This document shows, piece after piece, positions 212 to 13,741 of a stretch of 13,741 nt of DNA. The stretch is from Phycisphaerales bacterium (GTDB taxonomy: Bacteria; Planctomycetota; Phycisphaerae; Phycisphaerales; Phycisphaeraceae), in assembly GCA_012031455.1 (NCBI GenBank), contig JAAUTM010000006.1:1-13741 (forward strand), written 5' to 3'. Each line of letters begins with the position of its first letter. Position 1 is the first letter of the stretch. A model generated the notes under the pieces. That model worked only from the letters and a program-made list of their open reading frames with translations, was not told the DNA's origin and did not search any database. The translations under genes were made by a program, and so were the position numbers.

Positions 212-232
212 GTGTGAACGGTACCATAAATG
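212..232 (+). promoter_or_regulatory. Putative LacI-type operator, copy A
   Basis: The site reads GTGTGAACGGTACCATAAAT, with the near-palindrome AACGGTACCAT at its core. It shares 16 of 19 positions with the copy at 6701-6719, including 12 consecutive identical bases. It lies just downstream of the predicted transcription start of the esterase, a position where a bound repressor would block initiation or early elongation. The likely ligand is the LacI-family protein encoded at 4726-5778; this is inferred from co-location. Confidence 0.55.
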
Positions 233-243
233 AAAGGAAAGCC

Positions 244-1080
244 ATGCATTTGATTTATTTATCTTTGATTCTTGTTGTTTTTACCAGCCAGATCGCAACT
301 ACCTGGGCTCAAGAAACCAAAATGAAATATGAAACGATTAAGGACATTTACTACTATCAGGACATGGCGGGGGATGAACAGGATTCGTATCAGCTTGAAC
401 GTTGCCGGTTGGATTTGTACCGACCGACCAATGCCAAGGGCTATCCGACAGTGGTGTGGTTCCACGGTGGCGGGTTGACAGGTGGGGGTAAATCCATTCA
501 CCAAGAGTTCATGGGGCAGGGGATGGCTGTGGCTGCGGTGAATTACCGCTTTAGCCCTAAGGTGAAAAGCCCCGTGTACATCGAGGATTCCGCTGCTGCA
601 ATCGCGTGGGTTGTCAAGAATATTGCAAAATACGATGGTGATGCAAGCAAAGTGTTTGTCACCGGGCATTCAGCAGGCGGCTATCTGACACTCATCAATG
701 GGCTGGACAAGAAATATTTGGGCAAACACGGGGTCGATGCTGATTCGATCGCTGCCTACCTGCCACTGAGCGGCCAAGTGGACACTCATTCGGCCATTCG
801 CGCTGAACGAGGTATTCCCCGTATCAACACCGTGGTTGACGAATTGGCGCCGCTATATCAGATTCGTCCCAACTGCGCTCCCTTTATTTTAGTGACCGGC
901 GACCGCAACATGGAATTGTGGGGGCGGTATGAATCCAACGCCTGGTTTGTCAACCTGATGAAACGTGCGGGTAATGAAAATATTACTCTTTACGAAATTC
1001 AGGGCTTTAATCATGGCACTGTGCGTGGGCCAGCCTGTGAACTGGTCGCACGCTATATCAAAAGCCTCACCCAAAAATGA
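244..1080 (+). CDS. Secreted alpha/beta-hydrolase, esterase/lipase type (carbohydrate esterase candidate)
   Basis: This 278-residue protein begins at the ATG at 244, preceded by AAGGAAA three bases upstream. That start exposes a Sec signal peptide (MHLIYLSLILVVFTSQIATTWA, likely cut after residue 22), so the enzyme is exported. The fold is alpha/beta-hydrolase of the Abhydrolase_3/BD-FAE type. It has an RLDLYRP strand near 55-61, the oxyanion motif HGGG at 74-77, nucleophile Ser143 in GHSAGG, a probable acid Asp220 in VTGDRN and His257 in FNHG. All catalytic elements are present and the length is normal for the family. The family hydrolyses carboxyl esters; in this locus an acetyl or other acyl group on a polysaccharide is a reasonable but unproven substrate. 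It is transcribed alone, convergent with the beta-helix gene, and a candidate operator precedes it. The family call is secure; the substrate is unknown. Confidence 0.87.
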   Translation: MHLIYLSLILVVFTSQIATTWAQETKMKYETIKDIYYYQDMAGDEQDSYQLERCRLDLYRPTNAKGYPTVVWFHGGGLTGGGKSIHQEFMGQGMAVAAVNYRFSPKVKSPVYIEDSAAAIAWVVKNIAKYDGDASKVFVTGHSAGGYLTLINGLDKKYLGKHGVDADSIAAYLPLSGQVDTHSAIRAERGIPRINTVVDELAPLYQIRPNCAPFILVTGDRNMELWGRYESNAWFVNLMKRAGNENITLYEIQGFNHGTVRGPACELVARYIKSLTQK

Positions 1081-1394
1081 TCGTCAGTAGGCCGCAGCAT
1101 TACGTTTGAGTGTTGCGGTGAAATTCAGGCACGTCGACAACTCCATGAACTCATGGGTAAACTACCACTTGGCAATAGTGGGCTTCCTGGATAGCGATCA
1201 TACTCTACTGCCACTCGCCCATGATTCATGGGTAGGTCCGTACGGCCTATCTTACCTGCGACCGATGTAAGACGACTATCCGGGGATACTATCGAGTCGC
1301 AACTAACGCTGCGTTTCTCCCCGTGTGCTTCGGGCATAGATGGGCATTGCACCGGATATATACCAACGTCAACGGTTCATGTAGCAGCAAAAAT
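1081..1394. other. Non-coding, hairpin-rich stretch between convergent genes
   Basis: I see no convincing gene in this stretch. The open frames on either strand have no ribosome binding site or recognisable product. Several short inverted repeats occur: 1092-1118, CCATGA..TCATGG at 1143-1156, CCACT..AGTGG at 1165-1181, CCCATG..CATGGG at 1218-1232, and CGACT..AGTCG enclosing ATCC..GGAT at 1273-1299. The two CATGA/TCATGGGTA hairpins resemble each other. The stretch may be an eroded element, a small structured RNA or simply spacer. Confidence 0.4.
1092..1118 (+). terminator. Hairpin just after the esterase gene, weak terminator candidate
   Basis: CCGCAGCA at 1092-1099 pairs with TGTTGCGG at 1111-1118 (eight pairs including one G-U) around an 11-base loop, 11 bases after the stop codon. 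There is no clear T-run behind it, so intrinsic termination is uncertain. It may act as a 3' stabilising stem. Confidence 0.3.
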
Positions 1395-1418
1395 AACAGC
1401 CCCCAAGGGGGGGCTGTT
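1395..1418 (-). terminator. Strong intrinsic terminator of the minus-strand operon
   Basis: AACAGCCCCC at 1395-1404 pairs perfectly with GGGGGCTGTT at 1409-1418, a 10-bp GC-rich stem with a four-base loop. On the minus strand it is followed by ATTTTTG. It lies 35-60 bases beyond the reconstructed stop of the beta-helix gene at 1454. The uncorrected reading frame would run straight through it, which supports a frameshift at the end of that gene. Confidence 0.85.
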
Positions 1419-1453
1419 TGTATCTGATATTAATATTGACGGGAGTTGATGAC

Positions 1454-4400
1454 CTATTTGCCAGCGGTCTTGGCCGCCTGTTTTGAATTTCATTCGAGGA
1501 CAGACGATAGTTCCACACCGAAAACTCATCCATAGCGCCCCACCATTTGTTTCCGCCGTTTTTCGCACAGCCCAGCCGCATCAGATCGTCGTACCGTAGA
1601 GGCTGGGTATCAATCGTGCGTGTATCCCGCTCTATACCGTCCACATAAAGTGTGAACTGCATTTTCCCGGTATCGCGCAAAGCTGGTCCCCAGGTCATCG
1701 TCACGTTAAACCATCGCCCTGGGGTCATGATTTTGGTCACGTCATACTTCATTGATACGCCGGAAACATCCCCTTGAAGTTCCAAGGACCGGAACTTCTC
1801 ACCACGGGCATGAACCGTGATGGCCCAAGGTGCATGGCCTTGGCCTTTCGTAGCGATTTCGAAGGCTGTCATGTCTCGTCGATAGGCTTTAGTTTCGAAC
1901 TCTTTCTGGATTATCTCGGACTGCAGATCATCACTGCTTAACCACATCGACAGTGTGCCTTCATTACTACCCTGAAAACCGGGAGGAACAGGCAGAACAA
2001 AATTGTGTTTAGCTTTGATGGCACTTCCCAGGACACCGGGTACGAAGGTACCGGGATCGACCGATGTGCTCTGTGAGTTGGTCGGCTCGTGGGACTTGCC
2101 GAATGCATCGATCAGGTCGGTATGGCCGTCGAAGGGAACATAGGCAACCCGCGATAGAGCGGGGACTTCCATGTTCGCTGTATTCTTTGCCGCGGTGATC
2201 CCCAGCAGCAGGAAGGCTGGTTTAAGATTGCTCTGATCCCGTTGCACAACGATCGATTTGATGGTGCGATCCGGATTGGGGTTGACCATGCGCAAATAGT
2301 AGATTGTGACCCTGCTGACCTTGGGATTTGGACCTTGCCATGCTACGTAAGCGCTGTTCTGATTCAAGTTGTCGTGTTGCTGCCAAGTCGGGTCCACCCA
2401 CCAGTCATACAAGTGCTCTCCAATATTGACTGGTTGAGTGGCATGGCTCCCATCTTCATACTGGATTATAAATTGGGCAAGTGGACCGCTACCGCACCAT
2501 GCAGCGGTATAAAGGAAGTACAGTTCATCGTACTTCTGACCGACCGGAAGTTCGATCTGGCGTACTGCTTGCTCGGATTTGACCATGCTTGTTTCAAACA
2601 GCACGGCCCCAAGCTCTTTCGAGCCTATCTCATACATCACGCCGTCGAATCTGTTTTTGCCGTTGGGCAGTTGCGACATGTCATTGGGTCCCTGGTCGGT
2701 CCAGCCGCCCAGACCATCACCTTCCAAATCGTCAACCAGCGCACGATTGAAGAATTTGGAGATATCCAGCGGGTGGTAGATCAGATTGCTGCGCTGGTGT
2801 TGCTTACTCTCCTGCTGGGGAGGCTTGACATAAAACTCGCTCCAGTCCAACCTGATGGAGGTGGTATGAAAGCCGACTTGCTTTGCCAGTGTTTCATCCG
2901 TGAGAGTGAAATTCCACAGCTTGGGATCGACAAAGATTTCCTTATTCGTGAGGTAGGCTTTACCCCCCTTATTGATCTTTTCAAATGCATCTTTGTCAGA
3001 AACTACACCACCAATCTGAAAGGACTGCTTACCTTTGGTACTTATAAATAAATTATCCCGAAACTGATTCTCGAAGTACCGACCGTCAGAGGCGATTGAA
3101 TCCGGCAAGATGGAGGCATGAGTAAAGTTATTGTAAAGCAGGTTGGCATAAACTTGATTGAGGTGCAGGCCGTTGGTTCCCTTGCGGTCGGGTCCGCCAC
3201 CGACATCAATCCCCGATCCTTCGCTATCCGCAATCACGTTGTTGTAGACTTTCGTCCGAGTACTGCCGGATACCGCGATTCCATTAGCCAGGGGCGGTCG
3301 CGTACCGATGACCACGTTGTTGCGAATTGTTGTCCCATTCATTTTGAAGCGTTTGGCCACTTCAAGTGACGGGGCACCTTGGGTATTGCGTGAGCCATCG
3401 GCAAAAACGCTCATGTTCGGGCTGGGTGTTACTTCATTGAGTATCCCACCGGCCATGGCACGGTAAACCAGATTATTTTCAATCAGACAGTCTACGCCAG
3501 CGTAATCGAACCACAGCGTATGGTTGTCGTTGTTACGTGCAACATTCCAACGCATCACAACGCGGTCGCATTCCAGCAGCTTCATCCCGCCGCCTTCATT
3601 CCATACGGAGATACCGCGATAGTTGTTGTTGTCCGTAATATTGTATTCGATAATAGTATCATCGAATGTGCTCCCCGCAATACCCATGCAACCATTATTG
3701 CTGGCGATGTTGTTGCGGATGGTGATATGGTGTGGCCGAACTTCCAAGGCCTTATCAATCGTTACCCCAAGAACTGCGATGCCATAGGAGTTGGCGTACT
3801 GAACATCACAGTTTTCGATGATGATGTCATGGGTTACCCCCCGCACCTGAATCGCACCCTGTCTGGCAAAGGTCGAGAAATTACGGATTCGGAAACCACT
3901 CACACGCACGTGTGAGGTTGCATAGGGATCTGCGAATTTGGGGTCTTTCCACGAGTTCCGGTTCGGTGGCGTACCGAGCTGAATCGCCCATGTTCGCATC
4001 GTCACTTCCACGTTGGCCTGATTCGGATCGCGTCCATCGGTCAGACAGACATACAGTTTTTTCTTGATGTCATCGACATAGAACCGGTCCGCAGGTTTGA
4101 GCATCTCAAACTGTTTGATCTGCTGGATCAGCTTTCCATCAACGAAAACCTGCTCCATGCGGGCAGTGATGGCGGTTTCCGGTTTCTGCCAGCCGGCCAT
4201 CAATTCCGGTCGGTCGATTGACCACACCGGTTTGTCGCCCGGTTCACGCACCCAGTCCTTGCGTACATCAGACCCGCGAATTTCCACCCCTGGTTCTGCG
4301 AGGATGTTGATCCAGGCATCGGGGCGTCCCTGCTTGTGAATCCAGAACCCCTCACGATAAACCCCCCTTGCAGACCAGCACGGTTTGACCCGGCTGAACC

Positions 4401-4613
4401 AGATCAATCGCCCTTTGCATCGTGGCAAAGGCGGTAGCACGGGTCAAAACCGTTACTGGTGTCACTGCCATCAGGGGCGACGAAGTATGTCACTTCGGAA
4501 TCAGTAATAGGTTTGGGATCAGGGCCGATGATTGGCCAGGCAGCGTGAAGCGATGCGGCCTGAAAAAACAATACCAACAGCATCAGGTACTTCATCGGGA
4601 ATCGTAGAGGCAT
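1454..4613 (-). CDS. Large secreted right-handed beta-helix protein with C-terminal LamG domain (polysaccharide-active; three frameshifts)
   Basis: Reconstructed length is about 1,050 residues. The ATG at 4613 has AAGGAG seven bases upstream and opens a Sec signal peptide (MPLRFPMKYLMLLVLFFQAA, cut near 24). TYFVAPDGSDTSNG near 43-56, then AIDLVQPGQTVLV and VYREGFW, are the usual entry to parallel beta-helix polysaccharide enzymes (compare GH141 and lyase-like helices). Helix coils run roughly 235-540 with many VxIxNN-type repeats. A beta-sandwich follows near 610-800 (GGWTDQGPNDM), then a LamG/concanavalin domain from about 815 (VAYVPFDG..., GTLSMW, AMDEFSVWNYRLSS). Three single-base shifts break the frame: an extra base near 4439, one extra base in the C6/G6 run at 4362-4367, and a missing base in the T4/A4 run at 1481-1484. 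Correcting the last gives the ending KQAAKTAGK and a stop at 1454-1456. The long uninterrupted frame runs from 4440 to 1369. I cannot assign lyase or hydrolase activity, as no catalytic residues are certain. Confidence 0.8.
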
Positions 4614-4725
4614 TAATCAACTCCTTGTGCAACGTTAACGTACGGGTGAGAACCAATGGATAGCCGTAATCGCCTTACCTTGGCAATTGGACGATATCAA
4701 TATTTTTGGATGACGGACTATTGAG
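4614..4725 (-). promoter_or_regulatory. Spacer between regulator and beta-helix gene with a palindrome
   Basis: This 112-base gap contains the perfect 10-base palindrome ACGTTAACGT at 4632-4641, 18 bases upstream of the beta-helix start codon and just before its AAGGAG site. Similar ACGTTA strings sit in the other intergenic regions. It could be a second operator class or a processing site. No convincing -35/-10 pair was found, so the gene is probably read from the promoter upstream of the pseudopilin. Confidence 0.35.
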
Positions 4726-5778
4726 TTATGGCGGCCCAATTGAACCTGAATCCTTGAATCCAAATGGGACAAGAACCGGTTCGTACTTCATCAGGGGATT
4801 CTCGATCTTGTTAACCAACATTTTGACCGCCAGCTCGCCGACGGCATAGTCGGGCTGCTCCATAATCGACAACCGCAAACATCTGGTCACCTCGCTGTAT
4901 TCCTGAAACGAGAAGACCGATAGATCAGCGGGTATGCGAAGTCTAAGCCATTTAGCAGCGGTACAAATGGCGATGACATCTCCCATGTTGTCGGCAATGA
5001 TCGCAGTGGGACGATCGTGATTTTGCAGCAGTTGCATTGCCGTCGTGTGGCGTTCTTCTTCATCGAAAAATTGGGTTTGCAGGAGCTTGGGCAGTAAACC
5101 AGCCTTGGTCATGGCCTGTTGGTAACCTTCAAAACGGTCTGCCCAGCTATAGTGCCGTTGATCACGGACGCAGAAGTCCCAAAACTCGATGCGACGATGG
5201 CCGAGATCCAAAAGTATTTTCGTTGCCTGAACGCCTGCACCCAGATCGTCAGGCCGAACCACATCGTGGGTATGTTTAACGTTGATCCAGGTCGCTGGGA
5301 CATTGTATTCGTCGATCAGATTCACCATACGGGGAGAATTGGACCTGATCACGTCCATCAGCAACCCGTCGGCGGATAGATTACGTAAAATTTCAGGCAC
5401 GAAGCTCGAGTCTTCCAATTTATTCACATCGACACGACTGACCATCACTCCCATTTTGAGTTCAGCCAGTGCGTGTTGTATTCCGTTCATCCGTTCGGAA
5501 GGCAGGTAACTCTCTGGCCCATCACCGCACTGTACAATGCCGATGGTATTCAACCTGCCCAACGACATTGCACGGGCCGCCGTATTGCATCGGTAACCCA
5601 TTTCACGCGAGATCTGAAGCACTTGCTCAACGCGATGTTTGGCTTTGGCGCGCTTTCGGGGGTCTCCATTAAGGGCGCGGGCCACCGTCATACGGGAAAC
5701 ACCCAGGCGTTTGGCAATCGCATTGATGGTGACTCGTGACGGTGCTTCTTCGACGTTGTTTTGACCTTGCTGATTCAT
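4726..5778 (-). CDS. LacI-family transcriptional regulator
   Basis: This is a 350-residue protein when started at the ATG at 5778. The frame is open further upstream to 5895, but that part overlaps the pseudopilin end and lies ahead of the DNA-binding domain. Residues 16-60 form the classic LacI helix-turn-helix (VTINAIAKRLGVSRMTVARAL, then NGDPRKR and the hinge region to RCNTAARAMS). Recognition-helix residues are Arg29 and Met30 after Ser28. The rest is a periplasmic-binding-protein-like sugar-sensing domain (NTIGIVQCGDG, SADGLLMDVI, LGHRRIEFWD, RPTAIIADNMGDVIAI), ending SGSIGPP, of normal family length. There is no clear Shine-Dalgarno, only a weak GGAT upstream, so translation may be coupled to the pseudopilin 37 bases before it. 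It most likely represses this locus and its own operon through the GGTACC-centred sites and responds to a sugar released by the neighbouring enzymes. The effector is unknown. Confidence 0.92.
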   Translation of the reverse strand: MNQQGQNNVEEAPSRVTINAIAKRLGVSRMTVARALNGDPRKRAKAKHRVEQVLQISREMGYRCNTAARAMSLGRLNTIGIVQCGDGPESYLPSERMNGIQHALAELKMGVMVSRVDVNKLEDSSFVPEILRNLSADGLLMDVIRSNSPRMVNLIDEYNVPATWINVKHTHDVVRPDDLGAGVQATKILLDLGHRRIEFWDFCVRDQRHYSWADRFEGYQQAMTKAGLLPKLLQTQFFDEEERHTTAMQLLQNHDRPTAIIADNMGDVIAICTAAKWLRLRIPADLSVFSFQEYSEVTRCLRLSIMEQPDYAVGELAVKMLVNKIENPLMKYEPVLVPFGFKDSGSIGPP

Positions 5779-5815
5779 ACGTCTAATTGTAATCCATGCT
5801 GACCCGCCTGCACAA

Positions 5816-6579
5816 TCATTTGTGTAGTTCACGACCCTGGACGGTAGCAACCATCTTGTGAGCAGAAATCCATAGTTCGCTGGTGGCATGGCCATCGAGC
5901 CAGAGCACGCCGTTTCTCATCTCTAAAAATACTGTCCCGTGATTGCCACCCCCGTAAAAATTGCCCCGTGGAAAAGGTTTACCAGGTTTATACTTCGAGA
6001 ATCCATTCTCAGTGCCATGACCGTCATAAATGCAAATCGTATCCGATGGAAGATCCGCCTGTTCTAGTTTACGTATACTACCTAAGTAGTCCTTCCATGA
6101 ACCTACACCGATATTTAAGCCAGTGTTCATAGCCGCCGGATCACTGTTGAGTCGTACGTTGCGTGCATAGTAGTACTGTGCTTCAGTTAACTTATTATCC
6201 TTTCTGAACGCCTCGGACAGGCCCGGACACCCGCAGGGTCCGGTTTGGCTGAATCGTAGTTTTTGCTCGCTCCTTTGGACGTATCATGCTCCAGCAATCC
6301 CGCATTGTGCCAGGGTTGAGCGATACTCCACCATTCAGCGGTAATCTGATTCCAAGCCATCACGGGGCTTGAAGCAAAATAGTTCCCGTACTCAGATGCG
6401 TAACTGTACACCACCATGCCCGTTTGTTTGAGGTTGTTCTTGCACGCTAATTCCTGGGACACAAGCCTCGCCTGGGACAGGGCGGGAAGCAATAAAGCGA
6501 TCAACAAAGCAATGATGCTGATCACGACCAAAAGCTCTATTAGCGTGAAGCCAATTCCGCATGTGCGATTCTTTGACAT
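5816..6579 (-). CDS. Type II secretion/type IV-like pseudopilin (one frameshift)
   Basis: Reconstructed length is about 254 residues. The ATG at 6579 has AAGGAG eight bases upstream. The N-terminus is a prepilin class III signal: [10 protein letters not shown], then [20 protein letters not shown], with cleavage after Gly10 and the conserved Glu5 of the mature pilin. Next come the LPALSQAR and CKNNLKQTG strings common in PulG/DUF1559-like pseudopilins of planctomycetes and relatives. The frame breaks near 6214-6216, where one base is missing. The next frame continues with [19 protein letters not shown] and runs to the stop at 5816. The C-terminal part ends [11 protein letters not shown] and [10 protein letters not shown], a variant of the His-X9-Asp-Gly signature with 14 residues between His and Asp. 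The protein should sit in the inner membrane and assemble into a pseudopilus. It heads the operon with the LacI regulator and the helix protein. Its role is not known; a surface fibre binding polysaccharide is a guess. Confidence 0.85.
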
Positions 6580-6700
6580 GATAATCTCCTTACATGTGTT
6601 GTTAACCGCTTACCAATAAACAGTTAAATCTTTTTAATCTTTGCGTGCCACGGGATGGTTGCCCATACAAATCCTTGACTAATGCCAATCGCCATACATT

Positions 6701-6720
6701 GTGTGAACGGTATCATTATG
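6701..6720 (-). promoter_or_regulatory. Putative LacI-type operator, copy B
   Basis: The plus strand reads GTGTGAACGGTATCATTATG, matching copy A at 212-230 in 16 of 19 positions and copy C at 8711-8730 in 15 of 20. It overlaps the -10 element and start point of the operon that encodes the LacI regulator, so it predicts autoregulation. Confidence 0.6.
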
Positions 6721-6743
6721 CATCACTCAAGCCGCGTTGTCAA
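6715..6743 (-). promoter_or_regulatory. Promoter of the pseudopilin-lacI-helix operon
   Basis: On the minus strand a perfect TTGACA (6743-6738) is followed after exactly 17 bases by CATAAT (6720-6715), one mismatch from the consensus -10. Transcription would start near 6708, inside the putative operator. It is the strongest promoter match in the window, and overlap of operator and -10 is typical of repressor control. Confidence 0.7.
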
Positions 6744-6838
6744 GTAAATATCGCAAAAATTGCAACTTTTCCCTGACAATCCCAATCCCGGAATTTCAAA
6801 CAGTTGGCATCACCCAAATCAAATAGCGTGGGCCTCTG

Positions 6839-8617
6839 TTATCCAATAGACTCCAAAGTCAGTACCCGACCTGCTGTGGGAGGTAACTCCAGGTTAAATT
6901 CACTCGTAAAATCGCCCAGCGTCGCTTTCGTCCAGTAGTCGGATATCCTCACGTCTCCATCAAACCGGATCTTCCGCTGGGACGGCTCTTTGGTCCAATT
7001 CAGCAGCACAACATGCCTGGCGTGGCCATCGTTGATCCAGCCCATTTCCAGCCGGTCGTCGGCAAACGTTGCGGCAATTCCGGGTGCAGTTGTCAGGATA
7101 CGCAGCAGTCTCCATTGTTCCGGGGTGTACGCGATAACAGCATCACCGCAAAGCATCATTCCACCAGAGGCCAGTGTCGCTGCCATGTGGAAGCTCACCT
7201 GATTCTGAGTTAGGCCTTGATCCTTCTGGACTTTTCCATCGCCACCAATGAGTTCAATGGATGCGGATTTGGGCTTGAGAGCATCCAGCTTGATGCAATC
7301 CGGATCGTTCCACCAGAGCCGATCATTCATCCAGTTGCGCAGGAGATTCTCCCTGGCCACGCGGGCTACCGTCTCGTAGTTGCCAAAGACATCGCAGGAG
7401 GTGCGCGACCCGTGGATCTCGCCCAGAGACGGCCAATAGGGTTGATTGCAGCCCAGAATGAAACTGTTGCCCGCTCCGCGGCGAATCGCAGCCATGCCCC
7501 GGCGATAGGCCTCAATGGCTGTGGCCTTTGAATCGTAATGCTCCCCGAACGGCAACGCACCCCAGACATTCGCATCCAGCTTGAAGTAGGTGCATCCCCA
7601 TGCATGGAGCGTCCGAAACACTTCCTCCAGGTAGGCCAGTGCTTCTGGATGTGTACCATCGAGGATATACCACGGCCCCTGACGCCATCCGCCAAAAGTA
7701 ACCTTGCCACTATTGAGCGGAGCACCATCAGCGTCCTTCACAAACCAATCGGGATGCTCCTGGAAGAGTCTGGATTCCGGACTGGCGACAAACGGGGCCA
7801 CCCAGATAGCCGGTTCAAACCCAGCTTCCCGAATAGAGGCGATCACCTGTTTGACGCCACCATGAACATTGCCGTGGACTCGAGCCAATCGCCCATCCAA
7901 GGCTGATAGCCTGTCGTCGATCTGGATGTAACGTACCTCCGGCAGATGGGTCTGGAATGCCTCCAGGTTTGCCAGGATTTTTTTGGATGAAATGTCCGGG
8001 CCGTAGCAGTACCAGGAACACCAACCGTTGGGCACACCGTCCCAGTTGAGTCTGGGATGATGGCCCACGATCCTCGCGGCGAACCTCTCCATCATGAGCG
8101 GAGCGTCTGCGTCTTCCGCAACCATTAGCTCTTCCAGAACGACTTCTTCTCCCGGAGCCAGGGGAATCTTCTCCAGATTCATGACGATCTGGAGCGTTTG
8201 GGCATTGAAGTTGAAACGGCCGCCAAAGCGACGACATGAGGTGAATCCCACAAGCGCAGACATTCTGCCGGGGATTCCGAGTCGCATATAGTTGTAGCAG
8301 GAATGGAAACCCACCGGCTCCACAAGACGATAATGATTTACCTCGGTCAGTGAGTCCACATCTTCCGGTGCAGCAAGTGTCCCGGCTGTGGAGCAGAACA
8401 TGCTGAAGCCTTCGCCATAGAGCGCGGATTCGGGTGCAAGGCCGTGCTGGAACTCGGCCAAGAGGAACTCGCCGATGCGGGCCGTCGCTGCCGTGGTATT
8501 CTTCAAGGTAAACTTGAAGAGTTCACCTTCACGCACGACCGTGAGTTTCAGTCCGTCCAGCGACCGTTGCCGCTGGGTCAAGGCAAGTTCAATCGCATCA
8601 GCAAGCTTCATCGCCAT
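6839..8617 (-). CDS. GH36-like alpha-galactosidase (melibiase family), cytoplasmic
   Basis: This 592-residue protein starts at the ATG at 8617, with AAAGGGA upstream. No signal peptide or membrane segment is present, so it should act in the cytoplasm. Residues 1-185 form an N-terminal beta-supersandwich domain. The TIM barrel opens with GWCSWYCYG at 198-206 and YIQIDD at 230-235, then IWVAPF at 271-276. The probable nucleophile is Asp348 in YFKLDAN, matching the K-x-D strand of clan GH-D. The probable acid/base is Asp409 in SRTSCD, matching the R-x-S-x-D motif. A C-terminal beta-domain covers about 515-592. The size fits short bacterial GH36 or related GH27/31-like enzymes. The family releases alpha-linked galactose, and here it would finish imported oligosaccharides. 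It is divergent from the GH95 gene and shares its control region. The frame is intact. Family confidence is good; exact linkage preference cannot be read. Confidence 0.87.
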   Translation of the reverse strand: MAMKLADAIELALTQRQRSLDGLKLTVVREGELFKFTLKNTTAATARIGEFLLAEFQHGLAPESALYGEGFSMFCSTAGTLAAPEDVDSLTEVNHYRLVEPVGFHSCYNYMRLGIPGRMSALVGFTSCRRFGGRFNFNAQTLQIVMNLEKIPLAPGEEVVLEELMVAEDADAPLMMERFAARIVGHHPRLNWDGVPNGWCSWYCYGPDISSKKILANLEAFQTHLPEVRYIQIDDRLSALDGRLARVHGNVHGGVKQVIASIREAGFEPAIWVAPFVASPESRLFQEHPDWFVKDADGAPLNSGKVTFGGWRQGPWYILDGTHPEALAYLEEVFRTLHAWGCTYFKLDANVWGALPFGEHYDSKATAIEAYRRGMAAIRRGAGNSFILGCNQPYWPSLGEIHGSRTSCDVFGNYETVARVARENLLRNWMNDRLWWNDPDCIKLDALKPKSASIELIGGDGKVQKDQGLTQNQVSFHMAATLASGGMMLCGDAVIAYTPEQWRLLRILTTAPGIAATFADDRLEMGWINDGHARHVVLLNWTKEPSQRKIRFDGDVRISDYWTKATLGDFTSEFNLELPPTAGRVLTLESIG

Positions 8618-8653
8618 CTCATATCCCTTTAGGTTTATACTTCATGACAGAAC

Positions 8654-8671
8654 GTTAATGAGGTACCGCCC
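8654..8671 (-). promoter_or_regulatory. Putative operator, copy D (divergent copy, weaker)
   Basis: On the minus strand the sequence reads GGGCGGTACCTCATTAAC, which keeps the CGGTACC core and an ATTA flank but has one extra base between them compared with copies A-C. It lies 45 bases upstream of the alpha-galactosidase start codon. It could be a real second site or chance, since it is less similar than the others. Confidence 0.35.
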
Positions 8672-8710
8672 CACAACATTCCCGAAACACAATGGTGTCA
8701 ACCAAGCTTT

Positions 8711-8730
8711 ACGTTACCGGTACCATTATG
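8711..8730 (+). promoter_or_regulatory. Putative LacI-type operator, copy C
   Basis: The site reads ACGTTACCGGTACCATTATG. The last seven bases (CATTATG) and the CGGTA core are identical to copy B, with 15 of 20 positions shared. It also contains the near-palindrome GTTACCGGTACC and an ACGTTA string. It lies 56 bases upstream of the GH95 start codon. Confidence 0.55.
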
Positions 8731-8785: not shown

Positions 8786-11200
8786 ATGAACGCAGAATCC
8801 GAGTCAAGCCAGATGTCGCGCAGGGACGTGTTGCGGGTCGCATCAGCCACGCTGGCCGCTTCTTCGGGGATGGCCTCGGCTGCAATCAAGGCGGTGACTC
8901 AGATAACGCCCGATGCGATGATCACACCCGTTGTCTCACCGCCCCCGGAGTCGAATCTTGTGCTGTGGTACGAACAGCCCGCCGCCACTTGGGAAGAAGC
9001 CCTGCCGCTTGGCAACGGCCGACTTGGCGCGATGGTCTTCGGCTCACCCACCCGAGAGCGACTACAGCTTAACGAAGACACCCTCTGGGGCTGGCGATCC
9101 TTACGATCCTGTTAGCCCCGAAGCAATGGACGCTCTGCCCGAGGCACGCAAACTTGTTTTTGAAGGCCGGTACAAGGACGCCCACGAACTGATCGCCCAA
9201 AAAATCATGGCTCGTCCGCTGCTGCAGATGCAGTATCAGACGCTCGGCGATCTGCATTTTGGAATTCGCAGGCGATGACGCAACCTGTTCAGACTTTCGC
9301 CGTACGCTCGATCTGGAGTCTGCCCTCAGCACTGTGAGCTATAAGCAAGGCGGCGTTCGCTTCACGCGTGAAGCGTTCATCTCGCCGGTCGATCAGGTGC
9401 TGGTGGTACGCATCCGTGCGGATCAACCCGGTGCGATCAACTTCGTCGCCCGCTTCACGACGCCTCACAAGACACAACAGTCGTCCACCAAAGCTACGGA
9501 CACATTGTTGCTGCGAGGCAGCAACGGTGATTCCGAGGGTGTTAAAGGCGCACTCTCATTCGAAGCCCGCCTCGTGGCCCGCACGACTGGTGGGCGTGTG
9601 GAACTCGACTCGGATCGGCTTCGTGTCGTCGATGCCGATGAAGTCGTCCTCCACGTCGCGATGGCAACCAGCTTCCGAAAATTTGATGATGTCAGTGGCG
9701 ACCCGACATCGCTCAATGAATCGACTCTGGCCAGTAGCTTGCTGCGGTCGTATACGCAGATGTTCGATGAACATGTCGCCGAGCACCGCAGGCTCTTTGA
9801 TCGTGTGAGTCTTGACCTTGGCATCACGGATGCAGCAAAGCTCCCCACGGATCGCCGCGTGCGCGATTCGATGTCACTCGATGATCCCGCGCTCGCATCG
9901 CTCTATTTCCAGTACGGTCGTTACCTGCTGATATGCAGCTCGCGTCCCGGCACGCAGCCAGCCAACCTGCAAGGCATCTGGAACGACAGCCTGACCCCGC
10001 CCTGGGGCAGCAAGTACACCATTAACATCAACATCCAGATGAACTACTGGCCTGCCGAGACTACGGGTCTGGGTGAGTTGATCGAACCATTGGTGAAGAT
10101 GGTTGAAGACCTCGCCATCACCGGCGCTCACACCGCTCGCAAGATGTACAACGCCCGCGGCTGGGTCTGCCATCACAACACCGATATCTGGCGTGCCACT
10201 GCGCCTATCGACGGACCCTTCTGGGGCATGTGGCCCTGCGGCGGTGCTTGGCTCACCACTCACCTGTGGAATCATTACCTCTACACCGGAGATGTTGCGT
10301 TCCTGCGGCGTATATACCCGCTCCTTCGCGGTGCAGCCGAGTTCTTCCTCGATGCACTCGTCGAGGATCCCAAGACCAGATACCTCGTTACGAATCCATC
10401 AATCTCGCCTGAGAATGCCCATCCACACGGTACGAGCATCTGCGCCGGTCCAACGATGGACAACCAGATTATCCGCGACGTTTTCACGCAGGCGATCAAC
10501 GCTGGCGAGGTACTGAGGGTTGATCCCGAATTGCGGATCCAATTACAGATGAAATGCGATCGGCTGTCGCCTAATAGGATTGGCGCACAGGGACAATTGC
10601 AGGAATGGCTTGAAGACTGGGACGCAAACGCCCCCGAAAAGCATCACCGCCATATTTCCCATCTGTACGGCCTGTTCCCGTCAAACCAGATCGACCCTCT
10701 GACCACGCCCCAACTGGCCCAGGCTTGCAAAGTCACACTCCAAAATCGCGGCGACATTTCCACTGGCTGGGCCATCGCTTGGCGCATCAACTGCTGGGCA
10801 CGTTTGCGTGATGGTGATCGGGCTTACAACATTCTTCGCCACCTCTTGGACCCGACCCGTACATATCCGAATCTCTTCGATGCCCATCCACCGTTCCAAA
10901 TCGACGGCAACTTCGGCGGCGCAAATGCCATTGCGGAAATGCTGCTGCAGAGTCACAACGATGAACTTCATCTGCTGCCAGCCTTACCCCGTGCCTGGCC
11001 CGCAGGCAAGGTCACCGGTCTGCGCGCCCGTGGCGGCTTCGTCGTGGATCTGCCAATGGGCAGAAGGGCTGCTGACCTTGGCAACCATTCGAAGCTGCCT
11101 CGGTAACTCGTGTCGCATCCGTTATGGCAAGCTCCTGGCCGAACACACGATCGCCGCGGATCAGTTGCTTCACCTCGGTCCAACACTTCAAGTCAAATGA
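8786..11200 (+). CDS. GH95 glycoside hydrolase (alpha-L-fucosidase / alpha-L-galactosidase), Tat-exported (three frameshifts)
   Basis: Reconstructed length is about 804 residues, normal for GH95. The N-terminus holds a twin-arginine signal ([17 protein letters not shown]), predicting folded export through Tat. The GH95 opening motif [20 protein letters not shown], then GRLGAMVFG and NEDTLW, is followed by a helical core: [29 protein letters not shown] (10021-10059), PSISPEN and DGNFGG. By analogy with the Bifidobacterium enzyme, the Glu at 10411-10413 is a candidate general acid, and the Asn pair of NIN plus the Asp at 10903-10905 candidate base elements. Extra single bases break the frame at three places: the G4 run 9087-9090 (restores WAGDPYDPV), 9261-9262 (restores LHFEFAGDD) and 11053-11054 (restores VVDLQWAEG and the family ending GPTLQVK, stop 11198-11200). 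Uncorrected pieces are 8786-9115, an overlapping frame to about 9278, and 9259-11106. GH95 inverts and removes alpha-1,2-linked fucose or L-galactose. Divergent from the alpha-galactosidase gene. Confidence 0.85.
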
Positions 11201-11388: not shown

Positions 11389-13741
11389 TTATCTTCTTTG
11401 CCCGTAATGTGAAAGTACAAAGGCTTTTGCATACGCAGGCAGCACGGGCGTACCTATCGGAAGCAGTTGACCGTTAATATCAAATCCCAGTGCATTCCAG
11501 TCTGAGAAGTTCTTTCTCGAGGTTTTCCAATACCATACTGATTTTGTGGAAAAGCCCCTGTAGATATTATTATCGACAGTCACCTGACTCGCTAAATCAT
11601 ATGTCGGATCACCGGATTCGTCCTGAAGCTTCATGAAAACACCCCATTCAGTATCCATCGATATATCGTTGTGATGAATATTCACGTTATAAAGTCCGGG
11701 TGATCTGGTGGAATGTAATGCCCATATGCCATCTTTGGGACCATAAACAGCATTTTCATAAACTTCAACATCTCTTGATCCGCTGATAAAGATACCTGCA
11801 TTACCATTGCCGCCTATGCCGTTATTCCTTACGATATTCCAATAGATTTTGTTGGTCCGTAGCTGATCTCGTAGAAGATCCCCATGCTGTGATTGTTTTC
11901 CGTCAAGTTGGAGCGGATGGTGGCATTGTAGTTATAGGCATCAAACCAGATACCAGGCCCGATGTTGTCGTGCACCCAGTTGTTTTCTACCAGCATGCCT
12001 GCATCTGTATACAAAAACTTGGTGCCTCCGCCTTCCCAGCCCCAGTCGTAATCCAGCACCTTGTTATTGTATATTTCGGTATTGCGCAGGATCACATACG
12101 CAGTGTAACCATAACTGGGCCTGTTAGGGTCATCCACCCGGCCAACACCCCGGATGCCAATTTGTCCGTTACTATGTACCTTGGAATTTTCGATCGTTAT
12201 TCCCGGTGCCAGGCTGATGCCTGCCCCATGATTGTATCTTGCTTCCACGTATCTGACGATCCAGTTCTGAGTATAATGTTGTGCATGGAAGGATATGGCA
12301 CCATGCTGAGCAGGTGTGGCGTATTTTTCAATAATGAGATTCTCTATCGTTACGCCGCTGACTTCATGTCCCCCAAAAGCACCCCTTTCTTTGCTGATTT
12401 CCACTGATGAGAAGGATGCTGGGTTGTCATACATATAGATTCTTTGATTCGGATAGTCATAAAACCACTTTCCTGGTCCCAATTCCGCAATGCTTCCTAC
12501 ATGCTTGAGGCGAGTATATCCATTGACAAATAATTCCTCGCGATATGCATCACGAGCATTTCCGCCAGCCTTGATTTTCCCAAATGCCCAGTTATCCCCG
12601 GGTTGTCCGCTGATGAAGTACCGTCCGTTCTGATCGGTTTGAAAAGCAGAGGCTGACAGGACTTTTGCCCCGTTCAAAACGGCACCATATTCACCAAGGA
12701 ATGTATCCCCGTTCTTTGCAATAACTGATTGCTGGCGATGTACGCCAGACTTGATGATATATGTTGTACCAGCCGGATTATTGTTCACTACAGATTGGAA
12801 GTTGTCTCCGACATTGAGATATACCTCTCCAGCCACTGCCTTTCTGAGCAACAGATAGTCAACATTCGCGCCATTGGACCCTGTGGTTGTAGCTCTAATG
12901 GTGTTGGCACCTTCCAGAAGTGCAGTTGTTGTTGCTGACGTCAACCATGTAGTCCAATTACCAGTCGGATTAAAGGCCAGACTTGAATTAACAACATTAC
13001 CATTTACTTTAATTTCCAATGGGCGGTTAGAGGCTGCACCATTGGCATAAATGAATTCCAATGCATAATTACCTGCCGAAGGCACATCGACGGTCCATTC
13101 AATGTAAGCACCTGTGTTTCCGCTGTAATCCCTGTAGCCCGTACCACTGTACCCAGGGTTTGATGAGCTGGTCGATGCCTGTGAGGCAGTTGCACTTTCA
13201 GCTTCATAAAGTGCTTGAGTAACTTCAAGATAATCTATATTTCCGCCATTTAAACCAATTGTTGTAACTCGAATGGTGTTATCGCCCGCATTCAACACGA
13301 CCTTGTCATTACTGATTGCCCAATTAGACCAGCTGCCAGTTGGCTTGTAAGACTGTTTGCTACGAACAGTAACTCCATTCACAGCCATTTCGAGTGTTCT
13401 GTCGGCAGCGGCACCGTTGGCATGCCTGATTTCCAATAGATATGTTCCCTGTGCAGCCACATTGACAGTCCATTCAATGTATGCTCCCGTATCACCCCCT
13501 GCACCAAAATTGAAATCAACATATCCTGTGCCACTGTATCCAGGATTGCTTGAAAATACCTGTGCCCCGCTACGGGCTGCATCTTCAGCCTCGTATACTG
13601 ATGCCGATAGGAGACTTGAAGCCAGCTGAACCGGCGTCAGGGTCTGAAGGGGTGAGAGGGTCAGCAATTCCTGCGAAGCGACGCTGGTCTGCTGAACGCT
13701 CCTGGTTTGGTGCCCGCGTTGGTTCGTAAGTTGTGCGGACG
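11389..13741 (-). CDS. Exported protein with two tandem CBM6/35-type modules and a parallel beta-helix (5'-partial, one frameshift)
   Basis: The frame is open to the right edge, so the true start lies outside; a TTG at 13667 within it has no ribosome site. At least 780 residues are present. Counting from 13667, residues 25-149 and 154-275 are two related carbohydrate-binding modules (YEAEDA / YEAESA start, SSNPGYSGTGY, TGAYIEWTV, NTIRxTT, xDYL end). They are of the CBM6/CBM35 beta-sandwich type, which bind sugars with calcium. From about 283 (VGDNFQSVVNN) a right-handed beta-helix follows with many N-N turn repeats (VENNWVHDN, IRSNLTENN). One base is missing near 11854-11858: the first frame stops at 11829, while the next continues NKIYWNIVRNNGIGGNGNAG to the stop at 11389. 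Such proteins are exported polysaccharide binders, lyases or hydrolases; no catalytic residue can be named. Convergent with GH95. Confidence 0.8.
12843..13595 (-). repeat. Tandem duplication of a carbohydrate-binding module
   Basis: Two protein-level repeats of about 125 residues (13595-13221 and 13208-12843) are separated by only four residues. They share SSNPGYSGTGY, TGAYIEWTV, the NGAA..R.LE..VNG string, PTG.W..W and the NTIR.TT..NG.N.DYL ending. This is an internal duplication within the gene, not a DNA-level mobile repeat. Confidence 0.75.

Follow-up and report, generated by a model that had tools for sequence, protein, structure and literature searches.

Three short intergenic sites in a stretch of Phycisphaerales DNA probably serve as operators for a LacI-family repressor encoded in the same stretch. 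The stretch, 13,741 nucleotides (nt) of contig JAAUTM010000006.1, is referred to below as the window, and our site, open reading frame (ORF) and promoter scans were made within it. We consider it likely that the local repressor (4726-5778) uses sites A, B and C (Table 1) as LacI-family operators of even length centred on C·G, where the dot marks the centre. The predicted local regulon is supported but unproven, the support coming from the enrichment of such sites in intergenic DNA, from a promoter that abuts site B, and from comparison of the recognition helix with those of other regulators. A first-pass annotation of the window had proposed that a shared operator links the local LacI regulator to four units; this idea is supported for A, B and C, whereas a fourth copy, D, was dropped.

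Table 1. Features of the window discussed in the text.
Feature	Coordinates	Strand	Basis and remarks
Operator A, TGTGAAC·GGTACCA (TGTGAACGGTACCA)	213..226	.	strict family pattern; 17 nt ahead of esterase ATG 244
Operator B, TGTGAAC·GGTATCA (TGTGAACGGTATCA)	6702..6715	.	strict family pattern; 122 nt ahead of pseudopilin ATG 6579
Operator C, CGTTACC·GGTACCA (CGTTACCGGTACCA)	8712..8725	.	strict family pattern; divergent starts at 94 nt (alpha-galactosidase) and 60 nt (GH95)
Promoter-like TTGACA-17-CATAAT, 11/12	6715..6743	-	promoter scan; reads into pseudopilin-LacI
LacI-family regulator, 350 aa	4726..5778	-	Pfam LacI and Peripla_BP_3 (scanned as the longer ORF 4726-5895)
Pseudopilin-like gene, two ORFs (6187-6579, 5816-6130)	5816..6579	-	N_methyl PF07963 and TIGR02532, first ORF
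Esterase, BD-FAE/Abhydrolase_3 type	244..1080	+	family match; predicted target of operator A
Alpha-galactosidase-like protein, Melibiase	6839..8617	-	homologues named alpha-galactosidase / GH36; predicted target of C
GH95 enzyme, shifted frames (8786-9115, 9259-11106)	8786..11106	+	Glyco_hydro_95_cat 6e-181; predicted target of C
Beta-helix protein with laminin-G-like domain	1369-4613	-	two frames
CBM35/CBM6 beta-helix protein	runs to window end

The similarities first noticed among the sites are real. The run CGGTA(C/T)CAT is matched without mismatch only at 219-227, 6708-6716 and 8718-8726 in the window, and A and B have 12 consecutive bases in common (GTGTGAACGGTA). That the sites lie in non-coding DNA stands for A, B and C if the esterase starts, as we take it to do, at ATG 244 and not at ATG 151. 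This start is our own reading and a provisional one; the sequence AAAGGAAA lies upstream of ATG 244, and the N-terminus that follows appears signal-peptide-like by eye. Copy D (8654-8671) fails as a site, as it agrees with the others at 8 of 14 positions at best and lacks the family pattern, and we have abandoned it as an operator. It could still have a weak role next to an alpha-galactosidase promoter candidate (TTGACA-17-TGTTGT, 8701-8673, 9/12), which would put D just downstream of the -10 box.

Chance levels for the best matches between regions were assessed with dinucleotide shuffles on the seven intergenic stretches, which make up 1495 of the 13,741 bases. The best intergenic pair of 14-mers agrees at 13 of 14 positions, which is weak alone, since 43 of the 200 shuffles did as well. 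For 16-mers the best pair (15/16) was equalled in 3/200, and the best match across three regions (27/32) in 1/200. Scanning with site A at three mismatches gave four matches against 1.03 expected (4/200 shuffles reach four), one of which (5120-5133) falls within the LacI gene. We also applied, only once the sites had been seen, a strict family pattern, NGNNANC·GNTNNCN, whose fixed positions come from the LacI family; it has five matches in the window (213, 6702, 8559, 8712 and 13409). The three intergenic matches are exactly A, B and C, where 0.26 were expected, and none of 500 shuffles reached three.

With the centre at C·G, NT-6 is G, NT-3 is A and NT-1 is C in every one of the six half-sites of A, B and C. 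LacI sites usually have A at NT-3. In this register each site is an even palindrome with a central C·G, of imperfect symmetry (4, 4 and 5 of 7 pairs for A, B and C, no better than a T·A centre at that length). In the parts of PMC2978694 used here, LacI-family sites are 14-bp palindromes with CG in the middle; residues 15/16 of the protein correspond to NT-5/NT-4, and Arg20 to G at NT-6. These three residues determine specificity, and local regulation is common; the G at NT-6 in 6/6 half-sites alongside Arg20 in the window's regulator agrees with this rule. The parts used of PMC4052901 report CG-centred even palindromes for 1173 of 1303 LacI factors, and place more than 75% of LacI sites 30-140 bp upstream, a range that B (122 nt) and C (60 and 94 nt) fit. 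Site B overlaps the TTGACA-17-CATAAT promoter by one base, the last of its -10 box, which is a usual place for repression, and the 11/12 score of that promoter was reached in 0.0025 of 2000 single-base shuffles.

The regulator has the domain order of LacI/GalR transcription factors, a LacI helix-turn-helix and then a periplasmic-binding-like ligand domain (PF00356, 2.3e-8, and PF13377, 2.6e-18, both above cut-off). Its recognition helix reads S-R-M-T-V-A-R and aligns without gaps to that of CcpA, and the alignment points to a hinge, N-T-A-A-R-A-M, in which Met replaces the usual Leu. The hinge Leu is usual in the LacI family and inserts at the central CG. Relatives carry I, M, F, V or T at this residue, and 25 of 26 aligned proteins are non-Leu. 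The closest relative is 39% identical, and relatives from named genomes are mostly from Planctomycetota (L001-L015). Of 397 genomes of the class, 1 has a match with an E-value no higher than 1e-57, among the matches listed, with up to five candidates scored per genome. Seventy-five candidates from viral contigs included no relative of the regulator, and the LacI domains in 221 plasmid records were all less than 60% identical.

The suggestion that the Arg-Met helix signals an unusual specificity is not supported. Counting the window's regulator, 7 of 26 aligned proteins have SRMTV helices (in the other six, residue 20 is Asn where the window has Arg). Similar sites are also seen with Met16 regulators. 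Arg-Met is not odd in this respect, since E. coli GntR, with a KM helix (KMTVSR), has the site CTGTTATC·GGTAACAT between gntR and gntK, which is the sole strict site in 6 kb. GntR and the window's regulator have in common Met16, Arg20, TTA(C/T)C half-sites, a C·G centre and a location beside local sugar genes. They differ in residue 15 (Arg in the window, Lys in GntR), in the asymmetry of A and B, each with one TGTGAAC half, and in their target genes. The resemblance is in site type only, as orthology with GntR was rejected (PRK14987, 39.9 bits against a cut-off of 433). Other KM regulators have TACC·GGTA sites as well: TTGTTACC·GGTAACAA at L103, a perfect 16-bp palindrome about C·G, and TAGATACC·GGTAACAT and ..CAG at L108.

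The closest parallel came from scoring both strands of the regions upstream of related regulators for likeness to A, B and C (139 regions, 133 unique, from L001-L101 and 21 later loci; the window, L114, which is the same place as L104, and L115 and L116, not LacI by eye, were left out). The top score among the unique regions belongs to L107, which encodes an SRMTVSR regulator in a 3.2-Mb genome (G083) drawn from the class of a planctomycete, and which carries 13 of the 14 bases of operator B. The site lies at the regulator's own start codon, overlapping the TATGAT of a promoter recognized by eye (TTGACA-16-TATGAT), or just within the gene if translation begins at an earlier in-frame ATG; the exact sequence, TGRTAYCGTTCACA, was found once in that genome, at this site. 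The two regulators match significantly only over residues 16-71 (28/56, 50% identical, with the same hinge Met), and their ligand domains showed no significant similarity, so what they have in common is the DNA-binding part. Unlike in the window, the gene next to L107 resembles, by eye, one for an M24-type peptidase and not a carbohydrate gene. One-mismatch copies of the L107 motif number two in G083 and two in G033; three lie in frames longer than 110 aa, and the fourth (L129) is 53 nt ahead of an ORF resembling a sugar transferase (by eye).

In another control set, the strict site was present in 28 of 119 regions, with 37 sites against 12.7 expected (119 of 124 relatives were used, the window included, five being dropped for helix gaps). 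Arg-Met is neither sufficient nor exclusive for such sites, because several Arg-Met regulators lack one, as described below, and actinobacterial HQ-helix regulators use similar half-sites, such as TGTTATC·GCTATCA. In the phylum to which the Lentisphaeria genome G006 belongs, 7 of 194 genomes together gave nine Arg-Met loci, with two upstream strict matches about 400 nt ahead of the helix. These loci (L118-L126) are LacI-type with SRMTVSR helices (TRMTVSS in L118), and eight of the nine lack the usual hinge motif by eye, which makes them poor comparators. One of them, L124, has TGTTACAAGTAACG at -33 with an AA centre. At L089 and L099 (SRMTVQR), an inverted repeat, TGTAGCACGTGATA..TATCACGTGCTACA, is conserved just ahead of the start codon in otherwise diverged DNA, and may be a double operator of another kind. 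A search of the phylum around G002 (392 genomes) gave three matches, which were L104 again and two proteins that are not LacI by eye.

A number of observations weigh against assigning A, B and C to the local regulator in this register. The published rules concern TVSR helices, and the window's regulator has TVAR. The contrast between helix classes favours the assignment, but with limits: upstream matches of 11/14 or more occurred for 6 of 22 Met16/Arg20 regulators and 6 of 111 others (Fisher P 0.005; 0/200 column-permuted motifs reach six in the Met16/Arg20 class). This contrast was set up after the sites at L103, L107 and L108 had been seen, and the 22 cases are not independent, as some are near-relatives and three loci come from a single genome. 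With the threshold raised to 12/14, the counts are 2/22 and 1/111 (P 0.07). No such upstream site was seen for the Arg-Met regulators L104, L089 and L099, and seven of the nine Arg-Met loci from the G006 phylum fell below 11/14, the other two (L124 and L126) reaching 11 without the strict pattern. The promoter scan gave none at A or C (best 8-9/12), and A, at 17 nt, is nearer to its start codon than most LacI sites. The retrospective use of the strict pattern belongs here too, as does the internal symmetry of the sites: summed over A, B and C, a T·A centre gives more matching pairs than C·G within five bases (10 versus 8) and within six (12 versus 11). The two centres tie within seven to nine bases, and within ten T·A has 14 and C·G 17. 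Internal symmetry by itself does not decide the centre.

The first-pass annotation had in fact placed the centre at TA, within GGTACC, and had invoked an atypical LacI recognition helix to read it. In A and C the six bases GGTACC are fully palindromic, and the slight excess of matching pairs at short range is in keeping with that proposal, which we nevertheless regard as highly improbable: B has GGTATC, C·G centring brings all six half-sites into the family pattern, and a site with perfect 16-bp symmetry about C·G is present at L103, a KM relative. The TA centre is thus not established, and the family pattern and the comparator regulators favour C·G; most likely the proposed centre was three bases off and the sites are in the ordinary LacI register. 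PtxS is a member of the LacI family. The CCGG core of C, too, is already known, as the PtxS site is TGAAACCGGTTTCA in the part of PMC12195362 used here. It is also quite unlikely, if slightly less so than a TA centre, that the sites reflect chance likeness together with shared promoter elements (CATAAT-like flanks and the GGTACC hexamer). The frequency with which shuffles equal the best 14-mer pair, and the four occurrences of GGTACC in the window, one within a gene (2047), would fit such an origin, whereas the three-site measures (1/200 and 0/500 shuffles) and the L107 site speak against it. An assignment to paralogous LacI regulators elsewhere in the genome, or to several with overlapping specificity, and not mainly to the local one, seems to us unlikely but deserves more weight. 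Relatives do hold many paralogues of the subfamily (at E 1e-25 or better, G002 and G003 have 13 matches each and G007 has 29), and the actinobacterial HQ-helix regulators have T(T/G)-type sites as well. However, B sits at the promoter of the unit that encodes the regulator, L107 with its nearly identical site has its DNA-binding domain in common with the local regulator, and local autoregulation is common in the LacI family, according to the parts of PMC2978694 used.

Regulation by the local repressor could then proceed as follows. Without a sugar ligand, a repressor dimer would occupy, at B, the -10/start region of the pseudopilin-LacI promoter from which it is itself expressed, at A the esterase leader and at C the region between the divergent alpha-galactosidase and GH95 genes, repressing all of them, and sugar freed from polysaccharide would release it. 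Arg15-Met16 and Arg20 would read the half-sites TGTGAAC, TG(G/A)TACC and CGTTACC. Both binding and repression by the local regulator are inferred, and the enzyme families point to a galactose- or fucose-type sugar as the presumed ligand. GH95 is a fucosidase/galactosidase family. Together, the esterase, alpha-galactosidase and GH95 families suggest removal of side chains from a polysaccharide, with the freed sugar as inducer.

In the parts of Camas 2010 and Ravcheev 2014 used here, local LacI regulators likewise have an even 14-bp site with a central CG, G at NT-6 together with Arg20, and operators at their own promoter and at neighbouring carbohydrate genes. The window's regulator departs from them in its mainly planctomycete subfamily, the hinge Met, the TVAR helix and the adjoining pseudopilin gene. 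Our comparison suggests that published LacI recognition rules extend to a planctomycete-type regulator, such that operators could be predicted from the helix.

The adjoining pseudopilin gene is part of a wider pattern. Of 30 unique planctomycete/Lentisphaeria-type relatives, 12 (L002, L003, L004, L005, L006, L007, L084, L088, L089, L091, L095 and L099) have a pilin signature on the strand of the LacI gene, 850-1400 nt downstream of its start. The remainder of these loci, 149 kb, yielded three pilins, and no pilin was found at that place in 76 other, mostly actinobacterial, relatives. The 12 seem to include at least three orthologous pairs, with the same helices in two genomes, which leaves fewer independent cases. 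In the window the order is reversed, with the pseudopilin ahead of LacI, and because operator B lies ahead of it, the pseudopilin itself would be controlled by sugar. Tentatively, and with somewhat less than even confidence, we suggest that LacI and pseudopilin form a recurring planctomycete unit in which the pseudopilin is a sugar-induced part of polysaccharide use, one per locus, and not a housekeeping pilin; its role would be in surface attachment or type II-like export. Tying a pseudopilin to a sugar-controlled glycan locus gives such pseudopilins a testable role. Among the titles listed by literature searches, weak ones in which "LacI" also matches Lacipirellula, none concerned LacI with pseudopilins in planctomycetes.

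Among the remaining genes, the intergenic stretches beside the two beta-helix genes, for the part inside the window, contain no strict site. The second pseudopilin ORF (5816-6130) gave no family match in the profile scan. Frames are shifted in the pseudopilin (5816-6579), in GH95 (8786-11200) and in both beta-helix proteins (4404-4613 and 11389-11829), through either base-calling or assembly errors or decay. The LacI and alpha-galactosidase frames are open, and the latter has a relative (P0121) that is 92% identical.

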